Positions 7,941 to 22,966 of a DNA stretch of 64,000 bases are shown piece after piece. The stretch is from Vibrio coralliilyticus ATCC BAA-450 (GTDB taxonomy: Bacteria > Pseudomonadota > Gammaproteobacteria > Enterobacterales > Vibrionaceae). The translations under genes and the position numbers were made by a program. The notes below the pieces were generated by a model. It was not told the origin of the DNA, made no database searches, and saw only the letters and a program-made list of their open reading frames with translations. The stretch spans positions 1 through 64,000 of the forward strand of contig NZ_ACZN01000015.1 in NCBI RefSeq assembly GCF_000176135.1, written 5' to 3'. Numbering within the stretch: position 1 is the stretch's first letter; each line of letters opens with the position of its first letter.

Positions 7941-8061
7941 TAACGCCGCGTTAATGGGCAAGCAACGCTTCCACCAACTTAAGCCATTGTGCCATAAACA
8001 CAAAAACTAAACTGTGAGCCAAAACTGCCAAGCGTTGGTTGTCCGATTAAACGCTTGGTTA
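7941..8061 (-). repeat. attC site 13
   Basis: attC of the GCGTTAATGGGCAAGCAACGC / AAACTGTGAG type, found with the ORF-less cassette family; GTTA core 8058-8061. Confidence 0.9.
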
Positions 8062-8420
8062 TGGAAACCTAAGACAACCAACACACTCACAGCAAAGCAT
8101 CGGCTCATTGGGACCAATAAACACAACAAACCAGAATACAGCAACCCAATGAAGTCCAAAGAAAAAAACCAACAACAACGATACAGCCAGCTAGAACAAA
8201 GAAGGGCCGCCCCACTGAAGCCAAGTAACAGCTAATTGCCGCTTTACCAGTTTCACTTGGGAACCAGATGCAAACGGCAGATTAGCCATCTTGAGAAACT
8301 CAAAGCGGCTTTTCATCAGAGATAAAGGTTTGGAACCTAGCAGGGATTTGAGAATGACCATGAAACTCGTAACGAACGCTGAACCAACAAGCCAAATAAG
8401 AACTAAATCTTGCTGCACCA
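8062..8420 (-). ncRNA. ORF-less cassette family, copy 1 (candidate structured RNA)
   Basis: About 360 bp sharing with four other cassettes the block GGGCCGCCCCACTGAAGCCAAG, CTAATTGCCGC, ACGGCAGATTAGC and AAGCGGCTTTTCA. CTAATTGCCG and CGGCAGATTAG are inverted repeats and GCCGC/GCGGC gives an alternative pairing. Read on the minus strand the cassette begins ATGGTGCAGCAA right at the crossover. In this copy an open frame of 76 codons (8191-8421) runs through the conserved block, but in other copies it is broken, so conservation looks nucleic-acid level. Type given as ncRNA is a hypothesis. Confidence 0.5.
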
Positions 8421-8541
8421 TAACGCAGCGTTAATGGGCAGGCAACGCCGCCAAAAACTTAGACCATTGTGGCATAAACACAAAAACCAAACTGTGAGTC
8501 TAAGCCGCCAAGCGTTGGCTGTCCTGTTGAACGCCTGGTTA
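8421..8541 (-). repeat. attC site 14
   Basis: attC of the GCGTTAATGGGCAGGCAACGC type with CGCAG at the R' end; GTTA core 8538-8541. Confidence 0.9.
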
Positions 8542-8568
8542 GGTGAGTTCTACACCTCATTAATGTGC

Positions 8569-8889
8569 CTACCTTGTTTTTACATGGTTCTTAATGTAAC
8601 AATCAACTTCCTCATGATTGCCTGTGATAACTAGCTCCTCTGTATATCTATTAACAATTAGAGGAGTATTTCCACTAAGTGCTTCTCTAAAGTCGCCAGC
8701 TTTTATGAATTCTTCGGTGTTGTAATAGAATACCCAACCAAAATCATACTCTTCGGTCTCATTGTCTTGAATTTTTAACCTAATATTAGGATTTACATAG
8801 TTGGGTAAAGCTGAACCAAAACTGTTCATTTTAGTCTCTTCACACTTCAGATAACTTTCTACTTTCTTGACTGCTTCTGTATATTCCAT
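8569..8889 (-). CDS. YrhB/Imm35-like immunity-type protein
   Basis: A 106-residue protein whose centre, FGWVFYYNTEEFIKAG and then SGNTPLIVNRYTEELVITG, is the YrhB/Imm35 pattern (GW-[VY]-F, GN-PLIV-, TGE- strand). Imm35-type proteins are immunity factors in polymorphic toxin loci, and E. coli YrhB is a small heat-inducible relative. Start set at the ATG for MEYTEA because AGGTG, contributed by the attC junction GTTAGGTG, lies just upstream. No toxin partner is present. Confidence 0.78.
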   Translation of the reverse strand: MEYTEAVKKVESYLKCEETKMNSFGSALPNYVNPNIRLKIQDNETEEYDFGWVFYYNTEEFIKAGDFREALSGNTPLIVNRYTEELVITGNHEEVDCYIKNHVKTR

Positions 8890-8896
8890 AATCACC

Positions 8897-9016
8897 TAAC
8901 GCCTTGTTAAGGGGTGAGCAACGCAATACCGATGCTACCGCATGCCACCCTAATCACTAAAGCCAACGCATAGTAAAAATGCCACGCGTTGCGAATCCCT
9001 CTTGAACAATTTGTTA
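8897..9016 (-). repeat. attC site 15
   Basis: attC of the CTTGTTAAGGGGTGAGCAACGCAATACC type; GTTA core 9013-9016. Its partner cassette carries two genes. Confidence 0.9.
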
Positions 9017-9019
9017 TGT

Positions 9020-9253
9020 TTATTTTTTAAAGAGCTTACCAAATGTCTTTTTTAAATGGTCATCTAAGTGTGCTTGAACTATTGTCAGTCCCTCTTCTGC
9101 CGCTACGTCTAACAACGCATCGTAATCATTTAATTCGTTACAGTTTTGACATTTTATTAAGTCCCCTGAAGAAAATTCCTGATCGGGTTCCCCCTCTAAT
9201 GGGCAGTCACAAAACAGACATTTAAGTTCAACAGTAAAGTTGCTGTCATCCAT
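9020..9253 (-). CDS. Small zinc-ribbon protein, 77 aa (second gene of a two-gene cassette)
   Basis: Two CxxC pairs (CLFCDC near residue 12 and CQNC near residue 35) form a zinc ribbon. A helical C-terminal part ending in a basic KKTFGKLFKK tail follows. It starts only 2 bp after the stop of the upstream membrane protein, so both are translated from one message. This is the only cassette here with two genes, suggesting that the two products act together. Zinc-ribbon proteins with this tail are widespread small hypothetical proteins; function unknown. Confidence 0.78.
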   Translation of the reverse strand: MDDSNFTVELKCLFCDCPLEGEPDQEFSSGDLIKCQNCNELNDYDALLDVAAEEGLTIVQAHLDDHLKKTFGKLFKK

Positions 9254-9255
9254 TA

Positions 9256-9660
9256 TTAAAACTCCATCACTTTAAGACCAAGCGTCGCTAGCGCTAGAAG
9301 AAAGCCTAGAACAACAAAAAGCCCCTTGTGTTCCTCTATGTAATCTGAGGTTTTCTTCAAAAACGACCTGTTTGCCTTAAGTTCATCCGAACGCTTTTTA
9401 GAACGAGCAACACCAATTCCTTTAGGTGTTATTTGTAATCCGTTGTACTTACCACCACCTAAAAACGCATGCTTAAGCCATTCATGCGCTAAGCACTTGT
9501 CCGCCGCTTTTTCTAGTTGTTCAAGAGTGAACTTACCTTTGTTAACCGCGTTAATCTCTTGAACCAATTTTTCGTCTATATCGAGATGAACGGTTTTATA
9601 TGTATGACCATGCTCTTCCATATAGTCGACAACATTATTTAATAAAGCATATTCAGGCAT
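9256..9660 (-). CDS. Winged-helix-like protein with C-terminal membrane anchor (first gene of a two-gene cassette)
   Basis: The 134-residue product starts at MPEYALL, preceded by GGAGG 4 nt upstream. Residues 1-85 look like a winged helix: helices, then HAFLGGGKYNGLQITPKGIGVARSKK, the strand-turn-strand of a wing. Residues 112-131 are a single hydrophobic helix (GLFVVLGFLLALATLGLKVM) that would tether it to the inner membrane. It forms a two-gene unit with the zinc-ribbon gene 2 bp downstream. A membrane-tethered regulator or sensor is possible; nothing more specific can be shown. Confidence 0.75.
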   Translation of the reverse strand: MPEYALLNNVVDYMEEHGHTYKTVHLDIDEKLVQEINAVNKGKFTLEQLEKAADKCLAHEWLKHAFLGGGKYNGLQITPKGIGVARSKKRSDELKANRSFLKKTSDYIEEHKGLFVVLGFLLALATLGLKVMEF

Positions 9661-9677
9661 CGTTCCTCCGCTAAACA

Positions 9678-9800
9678 TAACGCCCAATTAAGGGGTGAAC
9701 AACGCCTCCACCCAAACCTAAATTATTTTGCCATAAACACTAAAGCTGAAGTAGAAGCAAAAGTGCCAAGCGTTGTGAATCCCTCTTAAATTGCTTGTTA
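9678..9800 (-). repeat. attC site 16
   Basis: attC of the CCAATTAAGGGGTGAACAACGCCTCC type; GTTA core 9797-9800. Confidence 0.9.
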
Positions 9801-9805
9801 TGTTT

Positions 9806-10234
9806 TTACGACCTCGATGCTATTTCCATAAACAGTACGACTAAAAAGCCTAAAACGAATCCTAGAAAGGCAAGCATTGTCATTATTGTATCTGGTTCTG
9901 AATGAGCTCTGTCGATATCTGGATGCTTTATGTAGATTCCCTTTATGGGAAAGCGCCTGTAGTACAATCGTGGATAAAAGCCATGTGTAGCTTTGATTTG
10001 ATGGCTATAGCGTAGTTGAGCTAAAAAACTCAACTGCGCAGCTGAAAACATAGCGAAAGACGTAATGTCACCACGGGTATAACCATAATTGAAATTGTAG
10101 ACGCCTAAACCGAAGTACAGAAATAGTAAGCCTGCAACCACTTGAAGCGCTTTTTTATGATGATAAATTGGCTGCAAAACAATGAACATAATGACACATG
10201 TACTTGTAGTGCTAATGATAAGATTCCAGTCCAT
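9806..10234 (-). CDS. Three-TM cassette membrane protein, 142 aa
   Basis: Hydrophobic segments at about residues 2-20, 30-46 and 116-137. The loop between the second and third is basic and aromatic (HGFYPRLYYRRFPIKG), which would lie in the cytoplasm. Start set at the ATG for MDWNLI, with AGGAG 4 nt upstream; the longer frame would run into the attC site. No family recognised. Confidence 0.7.
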   Translation of the reverse strand: MDWNLIISTTSTCVIMFIVLQPIYHHKKALQVVAGLLFLYFGLGVYNFNYGYTRGDITSFAMFSAAQLSFLAQLRYSHQIKATHGFYPRLYYRRFPIKGIYIKHPDIDRAHSEPDTIMTMLAFLGFVLGFLVVLFMEIASRS

Positions 10235-10248
10235 ATGACTCCTAAACA

Positions 10249-10371
10249 TAACGCCCAATTAAGGGGTGAACAACGCCTCCACCCAAACCTAAGGCATTGT
10301 GCCATAAACACTAAATTTGAAGTAGAAGCCAAAATGCCGAGCGTTGTGAATCCCTCTTAAATTGCTTGTTA
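10249..10371 (-). repeat. attC site 17
   Basis: attC of the CCAATTAAGGGGTGAACAACGCCTCC type; GTTA core 10368-10371. Confidence 0.9.
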
Positions 10372-10376
10372 GGCAT

Positions 10377-10784
10377 TTATTCACAATAGTAAACTTTTAT
10401 TTTATCTGGAGTTTTTCCATCACCTTTATATGCAGTCCAACCACCATTTGAACTACATGAACTTCCATTGTGTCTCGCTTCTAAGCAATAGCATAGCTTG
10501 CGATTATCTACATTTTCTATCTTTGTAGATAAATTACCAACATTGACCTTGAGACTTGACACATCTTCTTCCAAAGTGCCCTTAGACTTTTCTATCTCTG
10601 CCATGGCTTGAGTCTTAGCTAGTTCTATTAGTTGGATAGCATCTTTCTTATCTTCTTTCAAAGATGCATAATCCTTGTCATCTTCAATTGCTGATAGCCT
10701 ACCGTCTAACTGTCCTAGAAATAATGCACCTGAGACAACAGATATAATCAATGTAATTACCACTCCGATTTCAATTTTAGACAT
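10377..10784 (-). CDS. Membrane-anchored coiled-coil protein with cysteine-rich tail, 135 aa
   Basis: Residues 5-26 are a single membrane helix; 30-95 form an acidic coiled coil with heptads (SLKVNVGNLSTKIENVD). The C-terminal 40 residues contain five cysteines (CYCLEARHNGSSC and a final CE) plus WTAYKG, a small disulfide-bonded or metal-binding head. That orientation would place the head in the periplasm. The layout recalls spanins or small envelope proteins but no family is recognised. GGGAGAG precedes the ATG. Confidence 0.75.
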   Translation of the reverse strand: MSKIEIGVVITLIISVVSGALFLGQLDGRLSAIEDDKDYASLKEDKKDAIQLIELAKTQAMAEIEKSKGTLEEDVSSLKVNVGNLSTKIENVDNRKLCYCLEARHNGSSCSSNGGWTAYKGDGKTPDKIKVYYCE

Positions 10785-10806
10785 ATATACTCTCCCTGTT
10801 GATGCC

Positions 10807-10906
10807 TAACGCCGGGCATAAGGTGCGCCACGACTAACTCACCAAGCCCACTGAACTCCACACCAAAACCGCCGAGTGTAACGCGTCACCCTTGATGCCT
10901 TTGTTA
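10807..10906 (-). repeat. attC site 18 (short, distinct type)
   Basis: A 100-bp attC unlike most others: GGGCATAAGGTGCGCCACGAC at R' and CGCCGAGTGTAACG near R''. Its closest match in the window is attC 34. Confidence 0.88.
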
Positions 10907-10914
10907 GGTGCGTG

Positions 10915-11397
10915 TTACTCAAAGTGCTTTGTATACAACACCTGATTCCACGCATTTGTTAAAGCATTATCAATCGATACCGCCTTAGAAAATCCGGTAG
11001 GTTCACTAGCTACAACAAAAGCAATTGGCTCATTTTTATAACTCAAAGCCACTGCATTACCATCAGATGACCATTTGAAGGAAAAATCCGCTTCACTGGT
11101 ACCTGTTATTACTGCTTTTTCAGAGGCCAACTTTGCAGGTAATAATGGTGGTTCTCCCTTAGAAGCATCCGCTTTCCAGTCAAAGTTAACCGGTGGTTTT
11201 ACTCGCATATATGCGATCGCATCTTTTGATGGTGACTGCTCTCCTGGCTTTGTGAGGTAGAGAAATGCTACTTTGTCAGTTTCGTCTAATATCGCGAACC
11301 GATTAGAAGCAGCACTGTGTGAATGTATAAAAATGCCTTCAGCCATACATGTTCCTGTAATTAAGACACCAATTACTAAGGTTATTATTCTTCTCAT
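10915..11397 (-). CDS. Secreted cassette protein of unknown function, 160 aa
   Basis: An N-terminal signal peptide (MRRIITLVIGVLITGTCMAEG) with cleavage likely after CMAE. The mature part is beta-rich, with SFKWSSDGNAVALSYKNEPIAFVV recalling a blade-like repeat and LTNAWNQVLY at the end. No domain named. Start set at the ATG for MRRII because AGGTG from the attC junction precedes it. Likely periplasmic. Confidence 0.75.
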   Translation of the reverse strand: MRRIITLVIGVLITGTCMAEGIFIHSHSAASNRFAILDETDKVAFLYLTKPGEQSPSKDAIAYMRVKPPVNFDWKADASKGEPPLLPAKLASEKAVITGTSEADFSFKWSSDGNAVALSYKNEPIAFVVASEPTGFSKAVSIDNALTNAWNQVLYTKHFE

Positions 11398-11404
11398 AAG
11401 CACC

Positions 11405-11526
11405 TAACGCCGTGTTAAGTGGTGAACAACGCCAACCACCAAACCTAAACCATTGTACCTTAAACACTTAACCTGACTGGAACTGAAATCGCCAAACGTT
11501 GTGAATCCGTCTTGAACGCCTTGTTA
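11405..11526 (-). repeat. attC site 19
   Basis: attC of the GTGTTAAGTGGTGAACAACGCCAACC type; GTTA core 11523-11526 supplies the stop of the next gene. Confidence 0.9.
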
Positions 11527-11943
11527 GGTATTTGTTTTTCTCAAACACTTTTGAACCACGATCGACGTACAAATCATATTGCATTCGAAGGATTCAACAT
11601 TCGTCGAAGAGCTCATTACAACAGACAACAACCCTGACATTTCATCCTTTTTAACATTTAGATAATACAAGCAATTGTCATAGGTAAAACCGCTAATATC
11701 TACGGATGAAACTCCCAAAAACTCGATTGTAACCTCTGAGTAATGGGATATTTGATATTCTTGTTCCGAGCCTGTGTAACAAGGGAAGTCAAAAACAACA
11801 GTGACACTGGGAGCATTTTTGCCACCAGAGTTTAAGTTCCCTGAATTCAAGTTCAGCATATTTATATAAGCATCATGAAATGAAGGTGGTTCATCAAACT
11901 CTTCAAGCAATAATGCAGAATTCTCAATAAAGTCCCATGCCAT
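11524..11943 (-). CDS. Imm50-like immunity-type protein
   Basis: A 139-residue protein starting MAWDFIENS, with GGAG 6 nt upstream. The N-terminal LLLEEFDEPPSFHDAYINML resembles the SFHDAE segment of the Imm50 family, followed by alternating beta strands (VTVVFDFP, EVTIEFLGVSSVDISGF). Imm50 proteins are predicted immunity factors of polymorphic toxin systems. The match is partial. No toxin gene is nearby. The stop TAA is supplied by attC 19. Confidence 0.65.
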   Translation of the reverse strand: MAWDFIENSALLLEEFDEPPSFHDAYINMLNLNSGNLNSGGKNAPSVTVVFDFPCYTGSEQEYQISHYSEVTIEFLGVSSVDISGFTYDNCLYYLNVKKDEMSGLLSVVMSSSTNVESFECNMICTSIVVQKCLRKTNT

Positions 11944-11962
11944 GTTATACTCCAAAAATACC

Positions 11963-12084
11963 TAACGCCGCGTTAAGTGGTGAACAACGCCAACCACCAA
12001 ACCTAACCCATTGTACCTTAAACACTTAAGCTAACTTGAACTTAAAGTGCCAAGCGTTGTGAATCCGTCTTAAACGCTTTGTTA
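11963..12084 (-). repeat. attC site 20
   Basis: attC of the GCGTTAAGTGGTGAACAACGCCAACC type, near-identical to attC 9 and part of the same duplicated cassette. Confidence 0.9.
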
Positions 12085-12087
12085 GGG

Positions 12088-12561
12088 CTAATCTCGACTG
12101 GGGCCATCAACATTAATTGAGGGCATCAATGGCTTTAACTGCGTTTTTAACTGCCCAGACAGCATGACCTGACCGTAGCCCACACTATAAAAACTGTGTT
12201 CTGGAGCGAGTAAACTCTCTGTGTCAGTCATTCTGTATGTAGCTGTATAATTATTGATAGCCCAAAAAGGTTTCCCAAGAGCTTTCTCTATATGCGCAAT
12301 TTCGGAGTCTTTACTATCAACTAGATCAACTATGTCGTAAAAAGACAACTGAATGTAACGATCTAATTCATTCGGGTTATGAACCACGTTATTCACCCTT
12401 ATAGTGCTGACTAGCTTTAGGTTACTAGCTTCAACTTTTCCGTAAAAATGACTAATTTCACTCAAAGCGTGAGCTTGGAAATCATCAATTTCATTGCAAA
12501 CAGATGCAAATGAAACAACTGAAGACACCAACACTAAAAATTTCACCATAATTCTCGCCAT
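12088..12561 (-). CDS. Secreted cassette protein of unknown function, 157 aa (copy 2 of 2)
   Basis: Second copy of the cassette at 5165-5638, 6.9 kb away. The protein is identical over all 157 residues including the signal peptide, while seven bases differ, all silent. The leader and adjoining attC also match, so whole cassettes were copied. Neighbouring cassettes differ, which fits cassette re-insertion rather than tandem duplication. Confidence 0.82.
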   Translation of the reverse strand: MARIMVKFLVLVSSVVSFASVCNEIDDFQAHALSEISHFYGKVEASNLKLVSTIRVNNVVHNPNELDRYIQLSFYDIVDLVDSKDSEIAHIEKALGKPFWAINNYTATYRMTDTESLLAPEHSFYSVGYGQVMLSGQLKTQLKPLMPSINVDGPSRD

Positions 12562-12578
12562 TTTTCCCTCAATAGCCC

Positions 12579-12698
12579 TAACGCCCTGTTAAGGTGTGAG
12601 CAACGCAATACCGATGCTTCCGCATACCACCTTAAACACTAAAACCAACGCATAGTAAAAATGCCACGCGTTGCGAATCACTCTTAAACAGTTTGTTA
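12579..12698 (-). repeat. attC site 21
   Basis: attC of the CCCTGTTAAGGTGTGAGCAACGCAATACC type; GTTA core 12695-12698. Confidence 0.9.
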
Positions 12699-12702
12699 GG
12701 GC

Positions 12703-13290
12703 TCAGTTACCCAGCGATACTAGTTCGTCTAGCTCACTCTGCAAGCGAGCAGTTCGTTCAAAAACTAAAGTTTCGAGTTCCGAGTAATATATCAATGGGT
12801 ATATGGAGCCCCCTTTGTACATATCAGCTACTGATCTCGCATGGGCTTCGATATACTCGTTCCACTTTACCTGTGCAGACCCGTACGCTTCGGTGCGGTC
12901 ACTATCTAGCTTACTCATTAATTGAGCGTAAACTTCGTTCATTTTAACTAATGAACGATTATAACTATCCGAAGCCATTTGGTTCATTTCAGTTTGAGTA
13001 ATATGCTCAGTGCTACTCGTCTGCATATGAGAAACCGATTTAGTGTTTAAATCTAAAACATGACTCTGCACCGCACTACTTTTTTCTGTGAGCATAGAAG
13101 CAAACTGGTTTAAGCCTGAGATATCTAAACCTTGCTCACTCATTTTTTTATGTATATCTAGAACTTTTTGATGCTTATCCAAAATTTCTAATTCAGGCTT
13201 TGATTCGATTCTTCGCTTTATAAGATAACCAATGCCCGTCATGAGAGCTCCTAGTAAAACGAAGCCCAACTTTTCTATCATTTCATTCAT
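12703..13290 (-). CDS. Membrane-anchored DUF1311/LprI-like protein, 195 aa
   Basis: A membrane helix at residues 6-24 is followed by a basic RRR stop and a long helical region. Residues about 120-190 follow the LprI N-terminal (DUF1311) pattern: NEVYAQLMSKL, then QVKWNEYIEAHARSVADMYKGGSIYPLIYYSELETLVFERTARLQ, with the GGS..PL turn, but without the family's usual cysteines. LprI of mycobacteria is a periplasmic lysozyme inhibitor; here the lack of a cleavable signal and of cysteines makes that role doubtful. Confidence 0.72.
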   Translation of the reverse strand: MNEMIEKLGFVLLGALMTGIGYLIKRRIESKPELEILDKHQKVLDIHKKMSEQGLDISGLNQFASMLTEKSSAVQSHVLDLNTKSVSHMQTSSTEHITQTEMNQMASDSYNRSLVKMNEVYAQLMSKLDSDRTEAYGSAQVKWNEYIEAHARSVADMYKGGSIYPLIYYSELETLVFERTARLQSELDELVSLGN

Positions 13291-13315
13291 TTACACCGAA
13301 TCATCCTATGAGCCC

Positions 13316-13436
13316 TAACGCCGCGTTAATGGGCAAGCAACGCTGCCACAAACTTAAACCATTGTGCCATAAACACAAAAACCAAACTGTGAGACAAAAC
13401 CAGCAAGCGTTGGTTGTCCGATTAAACGCTTGGTTA
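13316..13436 (-). repeat. attC site 22
   Basis: attC of the GCGTTAATGGGCAAGCAACGC / AAACTGTGAG type, paired with an ORF-less cassette; GTTA core 13433-13436. Confidence 0.9.
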
Positions 13437-13793
13437 TGGAAACCTAAGACAACCCATACACTCACCACACTACATGAGCTCTTTGCAACCACGAAAACCC
13501 CACAAGCCAGCATGCAGCAACCCGATGAAGTCCAAAGAAGAAACCTAACAACAACGATATGGCCAATTGATACAAAGAAGGGCCGCCCCACTGGAGCCAA
13601 GATTCAGCTAATTGCCGCTGTACCATGTAACTTGGGATAAAACGCAAACGGCAGATTAGCCATAGAGAAATACCCAAAGCGGCTTTTCACCAGAGATAAA
13701 AATTTGGTACCAAGTGAGGAAATAAGAGCTCACAGGAAACTCGCTACAAAAGGAGAACCAATAACCAAATAAGAACTAAATTTTGCTGCACCA
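13437..13793 (-). ncRNA. ORF-less cassette family, copy 2 (candidate structured RNA)
   Basis: Homologous to the other four family members and keeps GGGCCGCCCCACTGGAGCCAAG, CTAATTGCCGC, ACGGCAGATTAGC and AAGCGGCTTTTCACCAGAG. On the minus strand it begins ATGGTGCAGCAA, but this frame stops after 16 codons, and the other frame that is open in copies 1, 3 and 4 is shifted here by a 2-bp loss between the two arms of the inverted repeat. The arms themselves are intact. Confidence 0.5.
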
Positions 13794-13914
13794 TAACGCC
13801 CAATTAAGGGGTGAACAACGCCTCCACCCAAACCTAAAGCATTGTGCCATAAGCACTTAATTGACTTGAAGTGAGGGCGCCAAGCGTTGTGAATCCCTCT
13901 TAAATTGCTTGTTA
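13794..13914 (-). repeat. attC site 23
   Basis: attC of the CCAATTAAGGGGTGAACAACGCCTCC type at the R' half but with GAGGGCGCCAAG near R''; GTTA core 13911-13914. Confidence 0.9.
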
Positions 13915-13917
13915 GGT

Positions 13918-14310
13918 TTAGACAACTAGCAAGTCACCATAACCCCAGATAGCCGTACCTAAAACAACAAACACATGAGCAAAAAGCTTTAAAACCTTTC
14001 TGTCTTTTGGCGTTTCAGGTTTACTCGCTATATTGGACTTTACTAACCCGTTGACCAGATCGTTGTCTGATATGTTAGGCATAACCGCTCTTTTCTTAGC
14101 TGTAACCTTTATAGCATCGAAAACTTCGTCATGTGAGTAACTCGCAAGGCGATATTCGACAATTGCTGCAAACAATACCAAAACTGCTCCTGACCTCTGG
14201 AACCAAATAGTATCGTCTACCGTTTGAATATCAAAAAACATCGAAGCCATTGAAAATACAATGCTTATAACGAGCAATAACCACTCTTTCTTATGCTTGC
14301 CGAACTTCAC
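13918..14310 (-). CDS. Three-TM cassette membrane protein, 130 aa
   Basis: Hydrophobic segments near residues 10-28, 38-56 and 108-127. The second is preceded by TIWFQRSG and followed by VEYRLASY. The loop of about 50 residues between the second and third segments is polar and basic and would be cytoplasmic. GGAGA precedes the ATG. No family recognised. Confidence 0.7.
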   Translation of the reverse strand: MKFGKHKKEWLLLVISIVFSMASMFFDIQTVDDTIWFQRSGAVLVLFAAIVEYRLASYSHDEVFDAIKVTAKKRAVMPNISDNDLVNGLVKSNIASKPETPKDRKVLKLFAHVFVVLGTAIWGYGDLLVV

Positions 14311-14327
14311 TATCTCTCCTTTAAACC

Positions 14328-14447
14328 TAACGCCTTGTTAAGGGATGAGCAACGCAATACCAAAGCCGCCGCATGCCACCTTAATCACCAAAACCAACGC
14401 ATAGTAAAAATGTCACGCGTTGCGAATCCCTCTTGAACAATTTGTTA
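14328..14447 (-). repeat. attC site 24
   Basis: attC of the CTTGTTAAGGGATGAGCAACGCAATACC type; GTTA core 14444-14447. Confidence 0.9.
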
Positions 14448-14453
14448 GGTGAA

Positions 14454-14813
14454 TTATCGCGCACCCAACTCCTTTAGTTCCCTTGCACTTTTTAGAACAG
14501 GTTGAAGATAGTTCTCTAACGCTAAAAACCATTGCGGCTCAGACAACTTACCATCAGAGCCAACTTCTAAGGGAGGTACCCAATCTTTGTGCCGATTAAA
14601 AAGATCTGGGATTGAACCACTAACATTCGACAATTGATTTTGGTTAAAACCATTGAAAATCAGCTCATCTAGGTCAAACAAAGCACGCTCGTATATTGAA
14701 ATTATCTTGGCATCGTTATGGTTTAGTTGAAGATGAGCAATTAAAAGCGTCAAACGTCCTTTTAAGTCATTTAGCTGCATCAATCTATCATTCTTTGTGT
14801 AGTGATATTCCAT
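14454..14813 (-). CDS. Cassette protein of unknown function, 119 aa
   Basis: Soluble, mostly helical protein. Residues 1-60 (LNDLKGRLTLLIAHLQLNHND) look like a helical hairpin; the end ENYLQPVLKSARELKELGAR is a charged helix. Start set at the ATG for MEYHYT with AGGTG from the attC junction upstream; the longer open frame only adds translated attC sequence. No family recognised. Confidence 0.68.
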   Translation of the reverse strand: MEYHYTKNDRLMQLNDLKGRLTLLIAHLQLNHNDAKIISIYERALFDLDELIFNGFNQNQLSNVSGSIPDLFNRHKDWVPPLEVGSDGKLSEPQWFLALENYLQPVLKSARELKELGAR

Positions 14814-14822
14814 TAATTCACC

Positions 14823-14944
14823 TAACGCCCTGTTAAGGTGTGAGCAACGCAATACAAAAGCTCCTGCATACCACCTTAAACACTAACCCCAACGATAGAA
14901 TGAAAAATGCCAAGCGTTGGGAATCACTCTTAAATGCTTTGTTA
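14823..14944 (-). repeat. attC site 25 (mixed type)
   Basis: R' half is of the CCCTGTTAAGGTGTGAGCAACGCAATAC type while the R'' half (CCAACGATAGAA..AAATGC) matches attC 6 and 38. GTTA core 14941-14944 supplies the stop of the next gene. Confidence 0.88.
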
Positions 14945-15550
14945 TGCACGTACTGCACCAAAGCTTTCTGCTATAACGTAAGAATTACCTAACTCAAAGA
15001 CAGACAAGCTTGGGTAACTTATGAATTCTGAACCTGTCCAATGTTTTGGAGCGCCTACCTCAATGGGCTTGATATTTATTGGCAGTGCACTTAGCTCTTG
15101 AGTAATTTTGTCAGCCAATGGTTTGGGGAAGCGACCTAAAGTACCAAATTTAGCTTTCACGATCCCATTTACTGTTGGCTTTTGATTCAAGAACCGGACT
15201 AAGTATTCCGCTTTTCCCATTATCTCCACACAGGCGCTGAAAAGAACACCAAGAAGTGACTCTGGGCTGCATGAGTTCCCCGAAAAAAACAGGTCAATTT
15301 CTACTTCTTGGTACGGAATTAAAAGAGGAGAGTTCTTAGATATAGAGAGTAACTCTTCTTCAACAGAGCATATAGACTCTTCAACGACACCAATACACTG
15401 CACTTCCCAAAGTTCAGGAGCAGCCTCATTATGCATCAAGACTGAAAGGCTAATCCTAAGATCGTCCGCATACCAATCAGCATCAACGATGCGAATATTA
15501 CCTTCTGCTTCATCAAACTCTGTTTGAATTCTTTCCAATAGTTCTTTCAT
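14942..15550 (-). CDS. Cassette protein of unknown function, 202 aa
   Basis: Soluble acidic protein of alternating helices and strands. Visible stretches include DWYADDLRISLSVLMHN, a conserved-looking EVEIDLFFSG, and FELGNSYVIAESFGAVRA at the end. No signal peptide, membrane segment or catalytic motif. The stop TAA comes from attC 25. Size and composition suggest a single folded domain, but I do not recognise the family. Confidence 0.7.
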   Translation of the reverse strand: MKELLERIQTEFDEAEGNIRIVDADWYADDLRISLSVLMHNEAAPELWEVQCIGVVEESICSVEEELLSISKNSPLLIPYQEVEIDLFFSGNSCSPESLLGVLFSACVEIMGKAEYLVRFLNQKPTVNGIVKAKFGTLGRFPKPLADKITQELSALPINIKPIEVGAPKHWTGSEFISYPSLSVFELGNSYVIAESFGAVRA

Positions 15551-15565
15551 ATAACCCTAAGTGCA

Positions 15566-15686
15566 TAACGCCGCGTTAATGGGCAGACAACGCTACCGCA
15601 AACCTAAGCCATTGTGGCATAAACACTAATACCAAACTGTGAGACAAAACTGCCAAGCGTTGACTGTCCAATTGAACGCTTGGTTA
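15566..15686 (-). repeat. attC site 26
   Basis: attC of the GCGTTAATGGGCAGACAACGC / AAACTGTGAG type; GTTA core 15683-15686. Confidence 0.9.
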
Positions 15687-15694
15687 TGTGGAGA

Positions 15695-16045
15695 CTAGCC
15701 CCACTTTTGCAACGCACAATCTAATGCCTTTAAAACTCGTTTACGATTGGATGCTTTGTTTAAGCTTTTTGGCAATTTACAATACCAAGGATGCCAATAG
15801 TGTTCAGATGGAGGGTGAGAGTCACGCGTTGAGGGGTGAACTTTCTGCACAAAATACGCTTTGCATTCAATAATCTGCTCAATACTGACAAATTGAAATG
15901 TAAAACCACATACGTTGACAAAGTACACCCATTGCTTCAAAAGGTTATCCCTACTTTTCTTTACAGGTACACCACCTTCATTATATGAGCTCATGAAATC
16001 AGAGTGCACTTTGGGGTCTGCTAACTCACGCCATATTTTACTCAT
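15695..16045 (-). CDS. Cassette protein of unknown function, 116 aa (copy 1 of 2)
   Basis: Basic soluble protein with a cluster of aromatic, Cys and His residues (SEHYWHPWYCKLPK) and a basic C-terminal helix (NRKRVLKALDCALQKW). No family recognised. A paralogous cassette lies at 21342-21692, 5.6 kb away, differing at five residues (K/E, Y/F, S/G, A/T, G/S) and about sixteen bases. The flanking attC sites are of the same type in both. GGAG lies upstream of the ATG. Confidence 0.75.
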   Translation of the reverse strand: MSKIWRELADPKVHSDFMSSYNEGGVPVKKSRDNLLKQWVYFVNVCGFTFQFVSIEQIIECKAYFVQKVHPSTRDSHPPSEHYWHPWYCKLPKSLNKASNRKRVLKALDCALQKWG

Positions 16046-16057
16046 ATTTTCTCCACA

Positions 16058-16179
16058 TAACGCCCAATTAAGGGGTGAACAACGCCTCCCCCGAACCTAA
16101 AGCATTGTGCCATAAACACTAAATTTGAAGTAGAAGCAAAAATGCCAAGCGTTGTGAATCCCTCTTAAATTGCTTGTTA
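16058..16179 (-). repeat. attC site 27
   Basis: attC of the CCAATTAAGGGGTGAACAACGCCTCC type; GTTA core 16176-16179. Confidence 0.9.
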
Positions 16180-16184
16180 TGTGT

Positions 16185-16610
16185 TTACTCAAAGTAACCC
16201 TTGGAAGCAATTGCAACCGATTGAAAGTACAACCCTTCACCTTCTTCTAGGTCAGGAAGAGTTGGACGCCAGAAAGATAACTGAAGCTCTTTAAACACGT
16301 AGCTATAGCCTAACTCTGGATCAGCATGATCATAGTTACCTTCTAGCTGAACTCGTTCGAGCACATTAGCCGCTAAAGTCCTATGTACGTCAAAGCCAAA
16401 CAATGTCGTTGAAAACAACTCAGACGCAGCAGCTTCAATGAACTCAACTCTTCCTTCATTATTAAAATCTACCATGAGACCATCTAAAAAATGATGGCGA
16501 TGACCATAGATGTAATCAGAAGCTCCGATAACATTGCTCACTTCAGTTTCTGTCATACCAAGCTTGACTGGACCGATTGAGTTTCCTAGTTGAATTTCGA
16601 AAATTTCCAT
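16185..16610 (-). CDS. Cassette protein of unknown function, 141 aa
   Basis: Starts at MEIFEIQLG, behind AGGA 5 nt upstream; the longer open frame reads back through attC and is not credible. Begins with a strand, then the turn GPVKLGMTETEVSNVIG, a pattern found in several small bacterial proteins of unknown role. It continues LMVDFNNEGRVEFIEAA and a C-terminal beta segment (YVFKELQLSFWRP). Cytoplasmic, acidic. I cannot assign a function. Confidence 0.7.
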   Translation of the reverse strand: MEIFEIQLGNSIGPVKLGMTETEVSNVIGASDYIYGHRHHFLDGLMVDFNNEGRVEFIEAAASELFSTTLFGFDVHRTLAANVLERVQLEGNYDHADPELGYSYVFKELQLSFWRPTLPDLEEGEGLYFQSVAIASKGYFE

Positions 16611-16628
16611 TTTTGTCCTAAAAACACA

Positions 16629-16748
16629 TAACGCCCTGTTAAGGGGTGAGCAACGCAATACCGAAGCCGCCGCAAACCACCTTAAACACTTAAACCAACG
16701 CATAGTGAAAATGCCACGCGTTGCGAATCCCTCTTAAACAGTTTGTTA
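16629..16748 (-). repeat. attC site 28
   Basis: attC of the CCCTGTTAAGGGGTGAGCAACGCAATACC type; GTTA core 16745-16748. Confidence 0.9.
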
Positions 16749-16753
16749 TATTT

Positions 16754-17428
16754 CTATTTCGCCATTGTCAGAAAACCATTAACGATAAAAACACATACAA
16801 CACCAAACGAAATAAAAAGCAACTGGGTCATAAATACTACTCGACGGTCATATTGAAACGGCTTCATTTCACCAACCTTATAACCTGCTGCAAATGTAGG
16901 AAATGTACCTAAGTAAAGGTTTTTATGTACCATTGGCGATCTGTAATATTGCATAGCAACTCTAGGCCAGAGTCCAAAGTCCATTAATTGTTGCAAATAT
17001 CTTGGCGAGTTTTGATACATAGCTGAAAGCCCTGTACTCATGGAAATACCCCCACCAATTGACTTACGATGAACCAAAGCTTCAAAGGCCGTTTTAATTG
17101 TGGCATTTGAGTCATTGTTATAAATTTGCTCTCCTTTCCTTGCTCTCATAAAGCAGCCGCCCAGTAACAAATAAAAGAAAATGACATCTTTTACCGAAGA
17201 TGGAACTGTAATACCAAGCAATGAAAAGAACCAATCCATGGGTTGATGTACGAATGCTTTATACATGTCGAGAAGAACTTGGAACATGTACGCAAAATCG
17301 AACGATACAAAAGCAGATATAAAGTTTACAACTGCGATTGTTGCTGCTAATACTCCGCCCATAGCAAAAACGGACTTAAATGACTCTATAGCTTTCGCTA
17401 TAGATTTTTTATTGTTCTCAGAAAACAC
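16754..17428 (-). CDS. Polytopic cassette membrane protein, 224 aa
   Basis: Hydrophobic segments near residues 18-40, 43-58, 82-95 and 195-219. The central loop of about 90 residues is basic and includes MRARKGEQIYNN and a PRYLQQLMDFGLWPRVAMQYYRSP stretch. No transporter or enzyme signature. The weak leader before the ATG (AAAGTGGTG) leaves the start slightly uncertain. Function unknown. Confidence 0.68.
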   Translation of the reverse strand: MFSENNKKSIAKAIESFKSVFAMGGVLAATIAVVNFISAFVSFDFAYMFQVLLDMYKAFVHQPMDWFFSLLGITVPSSVKDVIFFYLLLGGCFMRARKGEQIYNNDSNATIKTAFEALVHRKSIGGGISMSTGLSAMYQNSPRYLQQLMDFGLWPRVAMQYYRSPMVHKNLYLGTFPTFAAGYKVGEMKPFQYDRRVVFMTQLLFISFGVVCVFIVNGFLTMAK

Positions 17429-17464
17429 AAAACACCACTTTCGTTGTAAATTTGACTAGAAATA

Positions 17465-17587
17465 TAACGCCCAATTAAGGGGTGAACAACGCCTTCGCCC
17501 AAACCTAAAGCATTGTGCCATAAACACTAAATTTGATGTAAAAGCAAAAATGCCAAGCGTTGTGAATCCCTCTTAAATTGCTTGTTA
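17465..17587 (-). repeat. attC site 29
   Basis: attC of the CCAATTAAGGGGTGAACAACGCC type; GTTA core 17584-17587. Confidence 0.9.
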
Positions 17588-17590
17588 TGT

Positions 17591-18073
17591 TTATTTTGCT
17601 ATATCTATCCACTGTCCCTGTGTTAGTTCACCTAATTTCTGCGGATTCAGCTTAAACACTGAATTAGGTGTTCCCGCTGCTGCCCAAATTTCAGAATACT
17701 GATTTAGATCTTTGTCCAAAATGGTGTGGACTGATGAATTGTGAGCAACTGGTGGTACACCGCCTATAGCGTAACCAACTTTGTCACGAACAAAAGAAGC
17801 GTCTGCTTTGGTGAGAACAATTCCTGTAGCTTCTCTGACTTTGTTAGCACACACCATGTTAGAGCCAGAGACAACAACTAGCACCGGCTCACCGGTTTCT
17901 CCATGCTTAAAGATTAACGACTTCGCTATTTGGGAAACGGTACATCCGATAGATTCAGCGGCATCGAGCGCTGTACGAGTAGAACTTGGCATTTCCTGAA
18001 CGACAAAATCTTGGCCGTTTCGAGACAAAAACTCCTGTACTTTCAATGACGAAGACTTCAATTCCTTTGACAT
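17591..18073 (-). CDS. YbaK/EbsC-family aminoacyl-tRNA deacylase
   Basis: A 160-residue YbaK/ProX domain, usual length for the family. Visible hallmarks are SIGCTVSQIAKSLIFK (the substrate-pocket Lys), VLVVVSGSNMV, VGYAIGGVPPVAH and AAAGTPNSVFKL near the C-terminus. Family members free the cell of mischarged tRNA, for example Cys- or Ala-tRNA(Pro), by hydrolysing the ester bond; some act on other substrates. GGAGG lies just upstream of the ATG. One of the few housekeeping-like enzymes in the array; which tRNA it edits cannot be told. Confidence 0.88.
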   Translation of the reverse strand: MSKELKSSSLKVQEFLSRNGQDFVVQEMPSSTRTALDAAESIGCTVSQIAKSLIFKHGETGEPVLVVVSGSNMVCANKVREATGIVLTKADASFVRDKVGYAIGGVPPVAHNSSVHTILDKDLNQYSEIWAAAGTPNSVFKLNPQKLGELTQGQWIDIAK

Positions 18074-18109
18074 ATATCCTCCTTAATCTTGCTTATTCGA
18101 CGATAAACA

Positions 18110-18229
18110 TAACGCCGCATTAAGGTGTGAGCAACGCAATACCGAAGCTTCCGCATACCACCTTAAACACTAAACGCAACGCATAGCAAAAATGCTACGC
18201 GTTGCGAATCACTCTTAAATGCTTTGTTA
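18110..18229 (-). repeat. attC site 30
   Basis: attC of the GCATTAAGGTGTGAGCAACGCAATACC type; GTTA core 18226-18229 supplies the stop of the next gene. Confidence 0.9.
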
Positions 18230-18784
18230 TGTGTTTATCAACCGACTCACTAAGATTTTACCATTACGAGAGCTTGGTAACGTTGTAGAACGAACAATAA
18301 TTTGGTCTTTATCTATTTTATCGGCTTCAACGCCTAATGTACGCACAAAAGAAAAACAACGACTTAACAAGGTAAGCATGCCTTCGTAGCTTATTTCATT
18401 CACAAATGTCCTTTTACCCATGTAAGACTTTAAATCGTTATGGGCATATAGTTTATTTCGAATTTTCTTAAGGCCTGTCGTTTTAAAATCAAGCTTAATA
18501 CTTTCTAGAGTCAGGTGAAGATCTTTCGAATAACTCCCCCCACTTAACGTAACCAGATAATCAAGGGTTAGATTGTTATCACTTCTTGTTGCTGCCGGGT
18601 CAAATAATGCACTTGTTCTACAGACAATCTCGAAGAACAACGATTCTTGAATATTCGAAAAACACTCAGGAAAGCTGTGATTCAATGCTTTGACCGATTC
18701 CTCAGAGCCAAACAATTCTTGATACAACTCTACTTTTGTCTGTATCTCTGCGATCATTTTTTCTAATCGATAAAACTCGTTCAT
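18227..18784 (-). CDS. AbiU2-like HEPN protein, 185 aa
   Basis: Starts MNEFYRLEKM behind GGAG; the longer open frame runs through attC. An all-helical protein with KKIRNKLYAHND at about residues 123-134, an R-X5-H motif followed by Asp as in the HEPN domain of AbiU2-type proteins. The region before it (FEIVCRTSALFDPAATRSDNNLTLDYL) also fits that family. AbiU2 belongs to a lactococcal abortive-infection system, so a phage-defence or RNase role is possible. No partner gene in the cassette. Stop codon comes from attC 30. Confidence 0.72.
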   Translation of the reverse strand: MNEFYRLEKMIAEIQTKVELYQELFGSEESVKALNHSFPECFSNIQESLFFEIVCRTSALFDPAATRSDNNLTLDYLVTLSGGSYSKDLHLTLESIKLDFKTTGLKKIRNKLYAHNDLKSYMGKRTFVNEISYEGMLTLLSRCFSFVRTLGVEADKIDKDQIIVRSTTLPSSRNGKILVSRLINT

Positions 18785-18799
18785 ATGTCTCCAAACACA

Positions 18800-18890
18800 T
18801 AACGCCGCATTAAGGTGTGAGCGACGCTTGGCTATACTTGAGCGAAGCGAAACTGCCAAGCGTTGCGAATCACTCTTAAATGCTTTGTTA
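18800..18890 (-). repeat. attC site 31 (shortened, 91 bp)
   Basis: Ends match the GCATTAAGGTGTGAGCGACGC type, but the central part is replaced by a short unrelated stretch (TTGGCTATACTTGAGCGAAG). Shortest attC in the window. GTTA core 18887-18890 supplies the stop of the next gene. Confidence 0.85.
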
Positions 18891-19301
18891 GTTGGTGGAC
18901 TCCAACGCATGCTGAAGACATTCAGCGCCTTTGCACCCTAGGTAAATATTTTTGCCATTAGACATCTTTAATTTCAAAGCCTTACCTATTGAGACATTGT
19001 ATAACCAACCATCTTTTAGCAAACGAACTCCAATGCCTTGATACCATTTCGTTTCATAAGACGAAATATCTACAATACTTGAAACTTCGACTTCCTTTCG
19101 AAGAAAGCCAAAACCAAAATACCAGCACACTTTATTACCACTTACCTCAACAGACATCGAGTAAAACAATGCACCGATTACAAGATTAACTGTCAACGCT
19201 ATGAGCATACTGCCAATGTGATTCGATGTTAAAACTATAATTGCACTGAGAATAGAAAGGATGACTATCAGTATCTTGTTAACTTCCGTTTGTTTATACA
19301 T
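18888..19301 (-). CDS. Membrane protein with PH-like domain, 137 aa
   Basis: Two hydrophobic segments (residues 9-26 and 29-48) precede a small beta-rich domain: VCWYFGFGFLRKEVEVSSI, GIGVRLLKDGWLYNVS, KLKMSNGKNIYLGC. This strand layout matches bacterial PH-like domains attached to a membrane hairpin. Probably inner membrane with the domain in the cytoplasm. Such proteins have no common known function. Its TAA stop is the attC core. No clear ribosome binding site beyond GGGAA. Confidence 0.75.
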   Translation of the reverse strand: MYKQTEVNKILIVILSILSAIIVLTSNHIGSMLIALTVNLVIGALFYSMSVEVSGNKVCWYFGFGFLRKEVEVSSIVDISSYETKWYQGIGVRLLKDGWLYNVSIGKALKLKMSNGKNIYLGCKGAECLQHALESTN

Positions 19302-19330
19302 TACTTTTTCGTTCCCTGTACTGAACCAAC

Positions 19331-19451
19331 TAACGCCGCGTTAATGGGCAGACAACGCTACCACAAACTTAAACCATTGTGACATAAACACTAATGCCAA
19401 ACTGTGAACCAAAACTGCCAAGCGTTGGTTGTCCGATTAAACGCTTGGTTA
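19331..19451 (-). repeat. attC site 32
   Basis: attC of the GCGTTAATGGGCAGACAACGC / AAACTGTGAA type, paired with an ORF-less cassette; GTTA core 19448-19451. Confidence 0.9.
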
Positions 19452-19809
19452 TGGAAACCTAAGACAATCAATGTACTCACCGCAAAGCGTAAGCTCATTG
19501 CGGCCACGAAACCCCATAAACCACTATGCAGCAACCACATGAAGCCCAAAGAAGAAACCTAACAGCAACGATACGGCCAATTGATACAAAGAAGGGCCGC
19601 CCCACTGGAGCCAAGATTCAGCTAATTGCCGCTGTACTAATTTCACTTGGTAAATAGATGCAAACGGCAGATTAGCATTCATGGAACACTCAAAGCGGCT
19701 TTTCACCAGAGATATAACTTTGAACCTAGTGGACATGTAAGGGTGGCAATGAAACTCGCAGCGAATGCTGAACCAACAAACCAAACAAGAACTAAATCTT
19801 GCTGCACCA
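19452..19809 (-). ncRNA. ORF-less cassette family, copy 3 (candidate structured RNA)
   Basis: Same family as copies 1, 2, 4 and 5; contains the inverted repeat CTAATTGCCG/CGGCAGATTAG and AAGCGGCTTTTCACCAGAG. On the minus strand an ATG at the crossover opens a 35-codon hydrophobic frame beginning MVQQDLVLVWFVG and ending TGG TGA; a second frame of 86 codons (19524-19784) spans the conserved block. Directly adjacent to copy 4, with one attC between. Confidence 0.5.
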
Positions 19810-19930
19810 TAACGCCGCGTTAATGGGCAAACAACGCTGCCACCAACTTAAGCCATTGTGCCATAAACACAAAAACTAAACTGTGAGCCAAAACTGCCAA
19901 GCGTTGGTTGTCCGATTAAACGCTTGGTTA
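19810..19930 (-). repeat. attC site 33
   Basis: attC of the GCGTTAATGGGCAAACAACGC / AAACTGTGAG type; GTTA core 19927-19930. It separates two ORF-less sister cassettes. Confidence 0.9.
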
Positions 19931-20287
19931 TGGAAACCTGAGACAACCACTACACTCACCGTACAATACGAGCGCTTTGCAACCACAAAACACAACAAAC
20001 TTGTATGCAGCAACCCAATGAGTCCAAAGAAGAAACCTAACAACAACGATACAGCGAACTAAAACAAAGAAGGGCCGCCCCGCTGAAGCCAAGTTTCAGG
20101 TAATTGCCGCAATACCGATATCACTTGGAAGCAGAACGCAAACGGCAGATTAGCCTTAATGAAAAACTCAAAGCGGCTTTTCACCAGAGATAAAATTTGG
20201 AACCTAGTGGACATGTGAGAATGGCTATGAAACTCACCTCTAACGCCAAACCACCAAGACAAATAACAACTAAATCTTGCTGCACCA
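19931..20287 (-). ncRNA. ORF-less cassette family, copy 4 (candidate structured RNA)
   Basis: Homologue next to copy 3. The inverted repeat is kept in the right arm but the left arm has one change (GGTAATTGCCGC). The 35-codon hydrophobic frame from the crossover ATG (MVQQDLVVICLGG, ending at TGG TGA) is open. A second frame of 67 codons (20059-20262) crosses the conserved block. Its upstream attC is of the short 18/34 type, showing it was inserted independently of its own attC neighbours. Confidence 0.5.
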
Positions 20288-20386
20288 TAACGCTTGCAAT
20301 AAGGTGTGCCACGATAAACTCACCAAGCACACTGAACTCCGAACCAAAACCGCCGAGTAAAAAGCATCACCTTGATTGCTTTGTTA
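20288..20386 (-). repeat. attC site 34 (short, distinct type)
   Basis: A 99-bp attC (CTTGCAATAAGGTGTGCCACG and CGCCGAGTAAAAAG) related to attC 18. GTTA core 20383-20386 supplies the stop of the next gene. Confidence 0.88.
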
Positions 20387-20716
20387 TGTGTCAAACTCTT
20401 CAGCAGTTGAGCTTTCTAAACTCATTGCTAAAAAACGAATTCCCGGACCCGACTCAAAATTTTGGACTTCAATCTGAGCATGTGACCACTGACGACAACT
20501 TATATCCACAATAGCCATACCTCCAAGATAACCATCGAAACCTTCTTCAATGGTTAGATTGGATACATTCATAAACTTAAATTTTCGGAAACCGCCAGCC
20601 CTATCATGAGTTGTCAGTTCGATAGAACTATTCAAAGGCTCCCAAGGGTCAATATTATATTTAAACTCAACTAAATCTGTGTTTGCGAAATCTGCAAACA
20701 TCACCTTTTTTTGCAT
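20384..20716 (-). CDS. Cassette protein of unknown function, 110 aa
   Basis: Starts at MQKKVMFADF behind GGAGG 5 nt upstream. A beta-rich soluble protein: repeated strands (VEFKYNIDPW, SSIELTTHD, FRKFKFMNVSNLTIEEG, IVDISCRQW, AQIEVQNFE) suggest a sandwich or barrel. No catalytic motif. The strand pattern with IRFLAMSLE near the end recalls Imm50-type immunity proteins, but without the SFHDA segment this is only a guess. The TAA stop is the attC core. Confidence 0.7.
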   Translation of the reverse strand: MQKKVMFADFANTDLVEFKYNIDPWEPLNSSIELTTHDRAGGFRKFKFMNVSNLTIEEGFDGYLGGMAIVDISCRQWSHAQIEVQNFESGPGIRFLAMSLESSTAEEFDT

Positions 20717-20733
20717 GTTTGCCTCCTGACACA

Positions 20734-20854
20734 TAACGCCGCGTTAATGGGCAGACAACGCTACCACATACTTAACCCATTGTGGCATAAACACTAATGC
20801 CAAACTGTGAACCAAAACTGCCAAGCGTTGGATGTCCAATTGAACGCTTGGTTA
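20734..20854 (-). repeat. attC site 35
   Basis: attC of the GCGTTAATGGGCAGACAACGC / AAACTGTGAA type, paired with an ORF-less cassette; GTTA core 20851-20854. Confidence 0.9.
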
Positions 20855-21212
20855 TGGAAGGTTAAGGCAGCCACTACACTCACAGCAAAGCATGAGCTTC
20901 TTTGCGGCCACGAAACCAAACAAACCGCTATGCAGCAACCAATTAAAGCCCGAAGAAGAAACCTACAACAGAGATACGGCCAACTAAAACTAAGAAGGGC
21001 CGCCCCACTAAAGCCAAGATTCAGCTAATTGCCGCAATTCCAAACCCACTTGGGAGCCAATTTCAAACGGCAGATTAGCCTTAACAACTTACTCAAAGCG
21101 GCTTTTCACCAGAGAGCAAAATTTGGAATCAAGTGATTGAGCAAAAACTGCTTTGAAACACGCAGCGAGCGATAAACCAACAAGCCAAACAAGAATAAAC
21201 TTTGCTGCACCA
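20855..21212 (-). ncRNA. ORF-less cassette family, copy 5 (candidate structured RNA)
   Basis: Most diverged member. The conserved nucleotides GGGCCGCCCCACTAAAGCCAAG, CTAATTGCCGC, ACGGCAGATTAGC and AAGCGGCTTTTCACCAGAG are intact, yet the reading frame open in copies 1, 3 and 4 has stop codons after the SRFE position and inside the WLQW position. This is the best evidence that the conserved part acts as DNA or RNA rather than protein. A 35-codon frame from the crossover ATG is open but shifted in the middle. Confidence 0.5.
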
Positions 21213-21333
21213 TAACGCCGCGTTAATGGGCAGGCAACGCTACCACAAATTTAAATCATTGTGGCATAAACACTAAAGCTAAACTGTGAGCCAAAACTGT
21301 CAAGCGTTAACTGTCCAATTGAACGCTTGGTTA
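21213..21333 (-). repeat. attC site 36
   Basis: attC of the GCGTTAATGGGCAGGCAACGC / AAACTGTGAG type; GTTA core 21330-21333; partner of the duplicated 116-residue gene cassette. Confidence 0.9.
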
Positions 21334-22951: not shown

Positions 22952-22966
22952 AATAATCCTCTTTTA

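Follow-up and report, generated by a model that had tools for sequence, protein, structure and literature searches.

Conserved paralogous non-coding cassettes were described in Vibrio arrays by Boucher et al. in 2006 (PMC1382264), with purifying selection and an RNA or a selfish role proposed for them, and between 6% and 49% of the cassettes in the Vibrio arrays of that survey were non-coding (here and below, statements on published work refer to the sections of each source that were covered). Blanco et al. in 2024 (PMC11014356) assigned promoter activity as the function of gene-less cassettes of Vibrio superintegrons, whose non-attC part measures 335-515 bp, did not exclude small RNAs (sRNAs) and, in the sections covered, described no conserved fold; promoter activity of gene-less cassettes was reported in PMC6557892 as well. 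In Xanthomonas, a cassette-borne sRNA lies in reverse orientation (PMC12444791), and sRNA-Xcc1 (PMC2996969, PMC12444791) is a non-coding RNA on an integron cassette that points against its array. Here we analyse a window of Vibrio coralliilyticus ATCC BAA-450, the first 64 kb of contig NZ_ACZN01000015.1 in a 5.68 Mb genome, which holds a large superintegron array and, within it, five copies of a gene-less cassette with a predicted conserved fold. The attC sites that flank such cassettes fold as hairpins from the bottom strand, with conservation of the pairing and not of the sequence.

Like the cassettes of 2006, the present family lies between attC sites without a coding signal, is conserved over its full length, is often multi-copy and is confined to Vibrio (PMC1382264). 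It exceeds the 150-bp limit set there for open reading frames (ORFs), for example with the 76-amino-acid (aa) frame of copy 1, and whereas the 2006 homologues shared >80% identity or were lacking altogether, here divergent clades of near-constant length are joined by a covarying fold; the 45-copy V. vulnificus family of that survey may or may not belong to it. sRNA-Xcc1 differs in its length of 88 nt, in belonging to Xanthomonas and in a cassette that it shares with symE in one survey (PMC2996969, PMC12444791). Unlike attC, the helices described below (P0, P1 and P2) are located in the cassette body and not in the attC sites that bound it; in the window copies, moreover, paired GTT/AAC core boxes are missing from P2. 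In the literature searched (titles and passages, mainly of open-access papers), we found no prior report of a covarying fold in such cassettes, and relative to this literature the conserved fold appears to be new, while conserved non-coding Vibrio cassettes as such have been known since 2006. For one such family the fold is now defined, and both an alignment and a covariance model of it are available.

A rough attC scan of the window yielded 48 attC-like sites, the right-most of which may be false, and 41 intervals between them. Because the longest frame lies on the minus strand in 37 of the 41 intervals, we take the cassettes to be mostly minus-strand and the plus strand of the window to be the bottom strand. 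Five of these intervals are homologous and stand where the original prediction had placed five homologous cassettes, with the correction that each measures 365-367 nt from attC to attC and not about 358 bp. The four sequence blocks said to be shared by the copies were all recovered on the plus strand: ACGGCAGATTAGC matches exactly in all five copies, and GGGCCGCCCCACT, CTAATTGCCGC and AAGCGGCTTTTCACC each match exactly in four of five and with a one-base variant in the remaining one; an extra occurrence of CTAATTGCCGC lies outside the copies, on the minus strand at 62587. Copy 3 shares 78-82% identity with the other four over nearly the full length and 81% with a sixth copy, which lies elsewhere in this genome, on contig C3. 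All five were recovered at E 9.6e-38 or better by a covariance model derived from the window copies and their relatives, the next-best match in the window having E 0.2 (0.061 with a second model). The six intervals without an 80-aa frame are copies 1, 2, 4 and 5 together with 6249-6487 and 22722-22974, the last two being short intervals that are flanked by attC-like sites and have lengths unrelated to the family.

Comparison across the family lends good support to selection on a nucleic-acid fold and not on a protein, as had been suggested from the window copies: divergent relatives keep their pairing through double changes, and no codon-level signal accompanies them. The inverted repeat noticed originally, CTAATTGCCG/CGGCAGATTAG, corresponds to a helix of 10-11 bp with one bulged base (P2), and in genome G175 it is replaced by CAAATGGCTG/CAGCCAATTTG, with both sides changed and the pairing and the bulge kept. 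In a structure-fitted alignment of 66 distinct rows, 14 of the 21 core pairs show double changes, where shuffles give 10.1, and the cells with both sides changed number 193, where shuffles give 67.7 and slid partners at most 27; neither double-change count was reached in any of 500 shuffles. Because this alignment leans toward structure (it also includes two false rows), the test was repeated on a MAFFT alignment made without structure from 81 whole cassettes with a mean column identity of 59%. The covariation score was 0.277 compared to 0.104 in shuffles (none of 500 as high) and at most 0.075 in the slid control, and 236 double-change cells were counted versus 82.8 in shuffles (0/500) and at most 51 in the slid control, which, unlike the shuffles, preserves relatedness. 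Two loci without attC flanks (L052 and L053) were dropped from later alignments but still enter the structure-fitted pair counts and the wobble-cell counts given below.

On the sequence-only alignment, P2 is paired in 97.5% of cells and six of its 11 pairs covary. P0, a helix absent from the original prediction, connects position ~80 with the border of the recombination site on the right; its columns (94-98 with 393-398), picked after inspection of this same alignment, are paired in 92.3% of cells, with four of five pairs covarying and a gap in eight of the 81 rows. Its sequence changes by clade (GCTGCTG/CAGCAGC, GCTACTG/CAGTAGC, GCTGATG/CATCAGC or CAGCAA/TTGCTG), and one pair is lost (G opposite A) in 17 of the 81 rows, those of the G175 type (GCAGCT opposite AGATGC). 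The attC arms are paired in 96.2% of cells and two of their six pairs covary. The covariance model and covariation test that had been proposed for this family reveal P0 and P2 to covary beyond shuffles, with the double-change signal present for both on the sequence-only alignment; for P1, a likely outer core helix, it is present on the fitted alignments only. RNAalifold recovered P0, P1 and P2 on both strands from 25 representative whole cassettes, with no preference for one strand, and folds computed clade by clade added nothing firm. Mutual information over columns was dominated by the clade split and was used for the arm and P0 columns only.

A switch in which GCCGC pairs with GCGGC, giving two mutually exclusive folds, had also been predicted. 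It can be drawn in the window copies but is not conserved across 84 distinct cores: in their structure-fitted alignment 166 of 250 cells at its three central pairs are paired, compared to 321 of 329 cells in the inner part of P1 and 327 of 333 in that of P2, and the actual partner of GCGGC is the GCCGC of the GGGCCGCCCC block, in P1. We make no claim for a possible bottom-strand pseudoknot (P4, GAGAGCG/CGCTTTC) that sandwiches the 3' side of P2 and was seen by eye in one clade of 27 members (G024, G006, G055 and relatives), nor for an extra helix (P3) in the same clade; they are paired in 94.3% and 78.7% of cells, respectively, with no covariation beyond shuffles. An inner extension of P1 by top-strand U-G pairs was not supported either, its pairs being nearly invariant and its first- and third-position variants mostly unpaired.

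As originally described, copies 1, 3 and 4 keep open the frame that crosses the conserved blocks, here on the minus strand, whereas it is shifted in copy 2 and interrupted in copy 5. Relative to the 76-aa frame of copy 1, each of copies 2-5 has one-base deletions and seven of 16 relatives carry one-base indels; the longest frame overlapping copy 3 has 86 aa. In the window clade (17 copies) the variable columns at codon positions 1, 2 and 3 number 48, 49 and 41 of 76, and the codon-level signal that had been named as one of the findings that would together speak against a structural role is absent from these copies. On both strands, 23 representatives have longest frames like those of their dinucleotide-shuffled versions (mean z +0.31 and -0.13). 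None of eight frames scanned against Pfam passed the cut-off (one weak DUF7220 match, E 0.022, fell below it), and five frames scanned against NCBIfam gave no match. Used as a protein query against species genomes, the minus-strand frame was found at two loci only, both in Vibrio sp. RE88, and the G175 clade keeps the helices and not the peptide. Given the indels, codon-position counts, shuffle-like lengths and family scans, a protein reading of this frame was rejected. Decay of a once protein-coding cassette, as a pseudogene with its frame still visible in some copies, would draw on the frame of copy 1, which begins at the edge of the cassette, and on two relatives that reach 95 aa, but with the same indels, no third-position excess, shuffle-like ORF lengths, no Pfam or NCBIfam support and a whole clade devoid of the peptide we regard it as highly improbable.

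The unit is the whole cassette, and its proposed spread as a cassette is borne out by the bounded copies, which are one cassette long. A boundary pair was set for 81 of 85 aligned copies at 351-378 nt, a range that is partly imposed, as the boundary search restricted the length and gave preference to such values and as the right end is wrong in three rows (L016:5395, L040 and L048, kept in the 81-cassette alignment). When far wider limits were allowed, in an earlier run, 57 of 64 copies measured 353-378 nt, some ending at an inner AAC, and the core began 130-151 nt from the left end in these 57. The aligned copies are 85 of the 88 known; two G017 copies (with a core identical to that of a row present) and one G024 copy found later were omitted, and the four aligned copies without a boundary were left out of the 81-cassette alignment.

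We favour, with a probability of roughly 0.55, the reading that this is a cassette family whose cargo is one structured nucleic acid filling the whole cassette (~365 nt), most likely an RNA. Its fold comprises the attC-arm complement at both ends, P0, the inner P2 with its one bulged base and, likely, the outer P1. The RNA would be transcribed through or within the array from the bottom strand, fold as a closed domain and show conserved unpaired stretches (consensus CCCACTGAAGTCACGG and TTTCACCAAAGAAA, clade-variable) to a protein or RNA partner; the integrase would copy and shuffle the unit like any cassette, hence the paralogous copies. The functional strand may be the bottom strand, that is, the plus strand of the window, antisense to most cassette genes. 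First, wobble cells of the fitted alignment favour it (28 versus 2 in P2 and 24 versus 2 in six inner P1 pairs), although the model was built for the bottom strand and the cells are not independent. Second, an excess of A marks the bottom strand of every one of the 81 copies (AT skew 0.26 on average and at least 0.10), compared to a mean skew of 0.00 in 35 other window intervals, four of which exceed 0.1. Published precedents for an RNA are the detectable expression of non-coding cassettes of one Vibrio array (PMC2945992) and the reverse-oriented sRNA of a Xanthomonas cassette (PMC12444791). A bolder and less likely version is that these cassettes are whole RNA genes: a folded RNA of ~365 nt, read against the array and closed by the arms of its own recombination site, would be copied and shuffled by the integrase and would exert its effect on the array itself, on the integrase or on some target in the host. 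If true, the fold and the mobility site of such a mobile RNA gene would be parts of one continuous structure.

Recombination at attC likewise uses the bottom strand, and a role of the fold as single-stranded DNA (ssDNA) formed on that strand has for this reason to be weighed: P0 could extend or isolate the attC hairpin by the R box and tune excision, insertion or replicative resolution. The 3' side of P0 abuts the attC arm, the arms themselves covary, the window attC sites share the A-rich bottom strand, if more weakly (A 0.322, T 0.245), and the wobble changes of P2 lean to the bottom strand. On the other hand, G-U states persist, with 15 U-G cells at one P2 pair (unpaired in 12 rows), and G-U pairs are better tolerated in RNA than in DNA. 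Moreover, the rest of the window array has no match to the fold, so cassettes evidently exist without it, and the long conserved unpaired stretches would suggest a specific partner. We consider the ssDNA role less likely, and an RNA cargo the more probable.

Several results weigh against the favoured reading. Further pair types are not above shuffles on the sequence-only alignment (482 of 500 are at least as high), the covariation of the arms is expected from attC alone, and P1 pairs in 55.2% of cells of that alignment, a low value that reflects a shift of many rows out of register by one column. The strand evidence is mixed: by parsimony on a tree of the 81 cassettes from the sequence-only alignment, changes to G-U number 9 on the bottom versus 4 on the top strand for P2, 1 versus 4 for P0 and 2 versus 4 for the badly aligned P1. 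Folding-energy z-scores are modest and do not separate the strands, with a mean of -1.4 (bottom) and -1.0 (top) for the cores and -1.2 on both strands for whole cassettes, and no excess of sigma-70-like promoters was seen on either strand in 23 representatives and 2.1 kb of the window (the 23 representatives for energy, ORF length and promoters were picked from the 25 folded with RNAalifold). Finally, the study that found non-coding cassettes of one Vibrio array to be expressed could not, in the sections covered, assign expression to any cassette whose genes lie on the complementary strand (PMC2945992), a mild argument against transcription of the bottom strand.

The same promoter scan bears on the idea that these are promoter cassettes, gene-less DNA kept for promoters that drive neighbouring cassettes, with the fold secondary. 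Of 29 gene-less cassettes taken from four Vibrio species, most showed promoter activity (PMC11014356). The 23 representatives here show no promoter-like excess on either strand, although according to a section title of that paper such promoters cannot be identified in silico, and a promoter role leaves the pairing-preserving double changes across 81 cassettes unexplained, which renders this idea improbable. In a further reading the cassette is purely selfish, its fold being kept only since it aids spread or resistance to deletion without host benefit. Selfishness was put forward in 2006 as one possibility for non-coding cassettes (PMC1382264), and this reading agrees with the multi-copy state in 17 of 22 carrier genomes (up to 14 copies) and with the patchy distribution (22 of 227 Vibrio genomes). 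As it leaves the action of the fold unstated and is compatible with RNA and DNA alike, we judge it, taken as an explanation by itself, improbable as well. The structured-RNA cassette remains the reading we favour, and the fold and the covariance model make RNA, ssDNA and promoter roles separable by experiment.

BLAST with one copy found six copies in the genome of origin, four in G037, three in G168, four on the 255-kb V. coralliilyticus plasmid pSNUTY1 (CP020455.1) and a 71% partial match in G175. The first covariance model, from 19 cores, had matches in 19 of the 227 Vibrio genomes searched, but two of these proved false when inspected; with a rebuilt model, matches were confined to 22 of 329 Vibrionaceae genomes, which belong to a single genus of the 13 covered, with zero matches in 102 genomes of the 12 other genera. 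Model R3 recovered 84 copies in 22 of the 227 Vibrio genomes, the weakest at E 3.9e-9, with nothing between this value and the limit of 1e-3. The family search has saturated at its present sensitivity: scans of >40 genomes used strict filters with few candidates scored per genome, from which weak members may escape, and the 22 carrier genomes searched alone, with 150 candidates each scored, gave no additional member. At least two copies are present in 17 of the 22 carriers. A 16-base P2 pattern hit 10 stretches in IMG/VR; six of them rescanned with model R2 gave nothing below E 0.12, and whole-cassette BLAST against all 10 gave pieces of at most 25 bases only. Two gapped P2 patterns hit one and zero stretches there, the former without a model match, and the phage records held no family match. 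Rfam 15, which presumably includes a model of sRNA-Xcc1, returned no match above the gathering score in the whole window. The coordinates of the window copies and their helices are collected below.

Table. Coordinates of the five cassette copies, their conserved cores and their predicted helices in the window.
Feature	Position	Strand	Remarks
Copy 1, whole gene-less cassette interior	8058..8424	cassette direction minus	attC arm GTTATGG to CCATAAC
Copy 2, whole cassette interior	13433..13797		
Copy 3, whole cassette interior	19448..19813		
Copy 4, whole cassette interior	19927..20291		
Copy 5, whole cassette interior	20851..21216		
Copy 1, conserved core (P1, P2, flanks)	8197..8324	+	covariance model 152.1 bits, E 8.6e-42
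Copy 2, conserved core	13573..13698	+	covariance model 138.1 bits
Copy 3, conserved core	19587..19714	+	covariance model 150.8 bits
Copy 4, conserved core	20065..20192	+	covariance model 144.3 bits
Copy 5, conserved core	20990..21117	+	covariance model 139.4 bits
Copy 1, P0 5' side (CAGCAA)	8139..8144	+	covarying helix
Copy 1, P0 3' side (TTGCTG)	8410..8415	+	covarying helix; adjoins attC arm
Copy 1, likely P1, 5' side (GAAGGGCCGC)	8201..8210	+	
Copy 1, likely P1, 3' side (GCGGCTTTTC)	8305..8314	+	
Copy 1, P2 5' side (GCTAATTGCCG)	8231..8241	+	
Copy 1, P2 3' side (CGGCAGATTAGC)	8275..8286	+	one bulged G
Copy 2, P2 5' side	13607..13617	+	
Copy 2, P2 3' side	13649..13660	+	
Copy 3, P2 5' side	19621..19631	+	
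Copy 3, P2 3' side	19665..19676	+	
Copy 4, P2 5' side	20099..20109	+	second base G for C, one pair broken
Copy 4, P2 3' side	20143..20154	+	
Copy 5, P2 5' side	21024..21034	+	
Copy 5, P2 3' side	21068..21079	+	

Further observations concern the surroundings of the relatives. On pSNUTY1, copy L016:5395-5761 runs into attC-like sequence without a right end of its own, as after a deletion. Rfam 15 gave one match over 16 loci of divergent members, a group II intron (RF02005, 97.5 bits) that lies outside the element, at L044 2489-2750, ~900 nt from a family member in G217. In G175, members of the studied family are followed by a second, different family of repeated gene-less-looking cassettes (L011 1250-1560 and 1680-1985), whose ends look complementary by eye. 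Similarly, a run of short cassettes at G070:C81 88000-98000 (L098, L112) interleaves at least one other repeated kind with members of the family.

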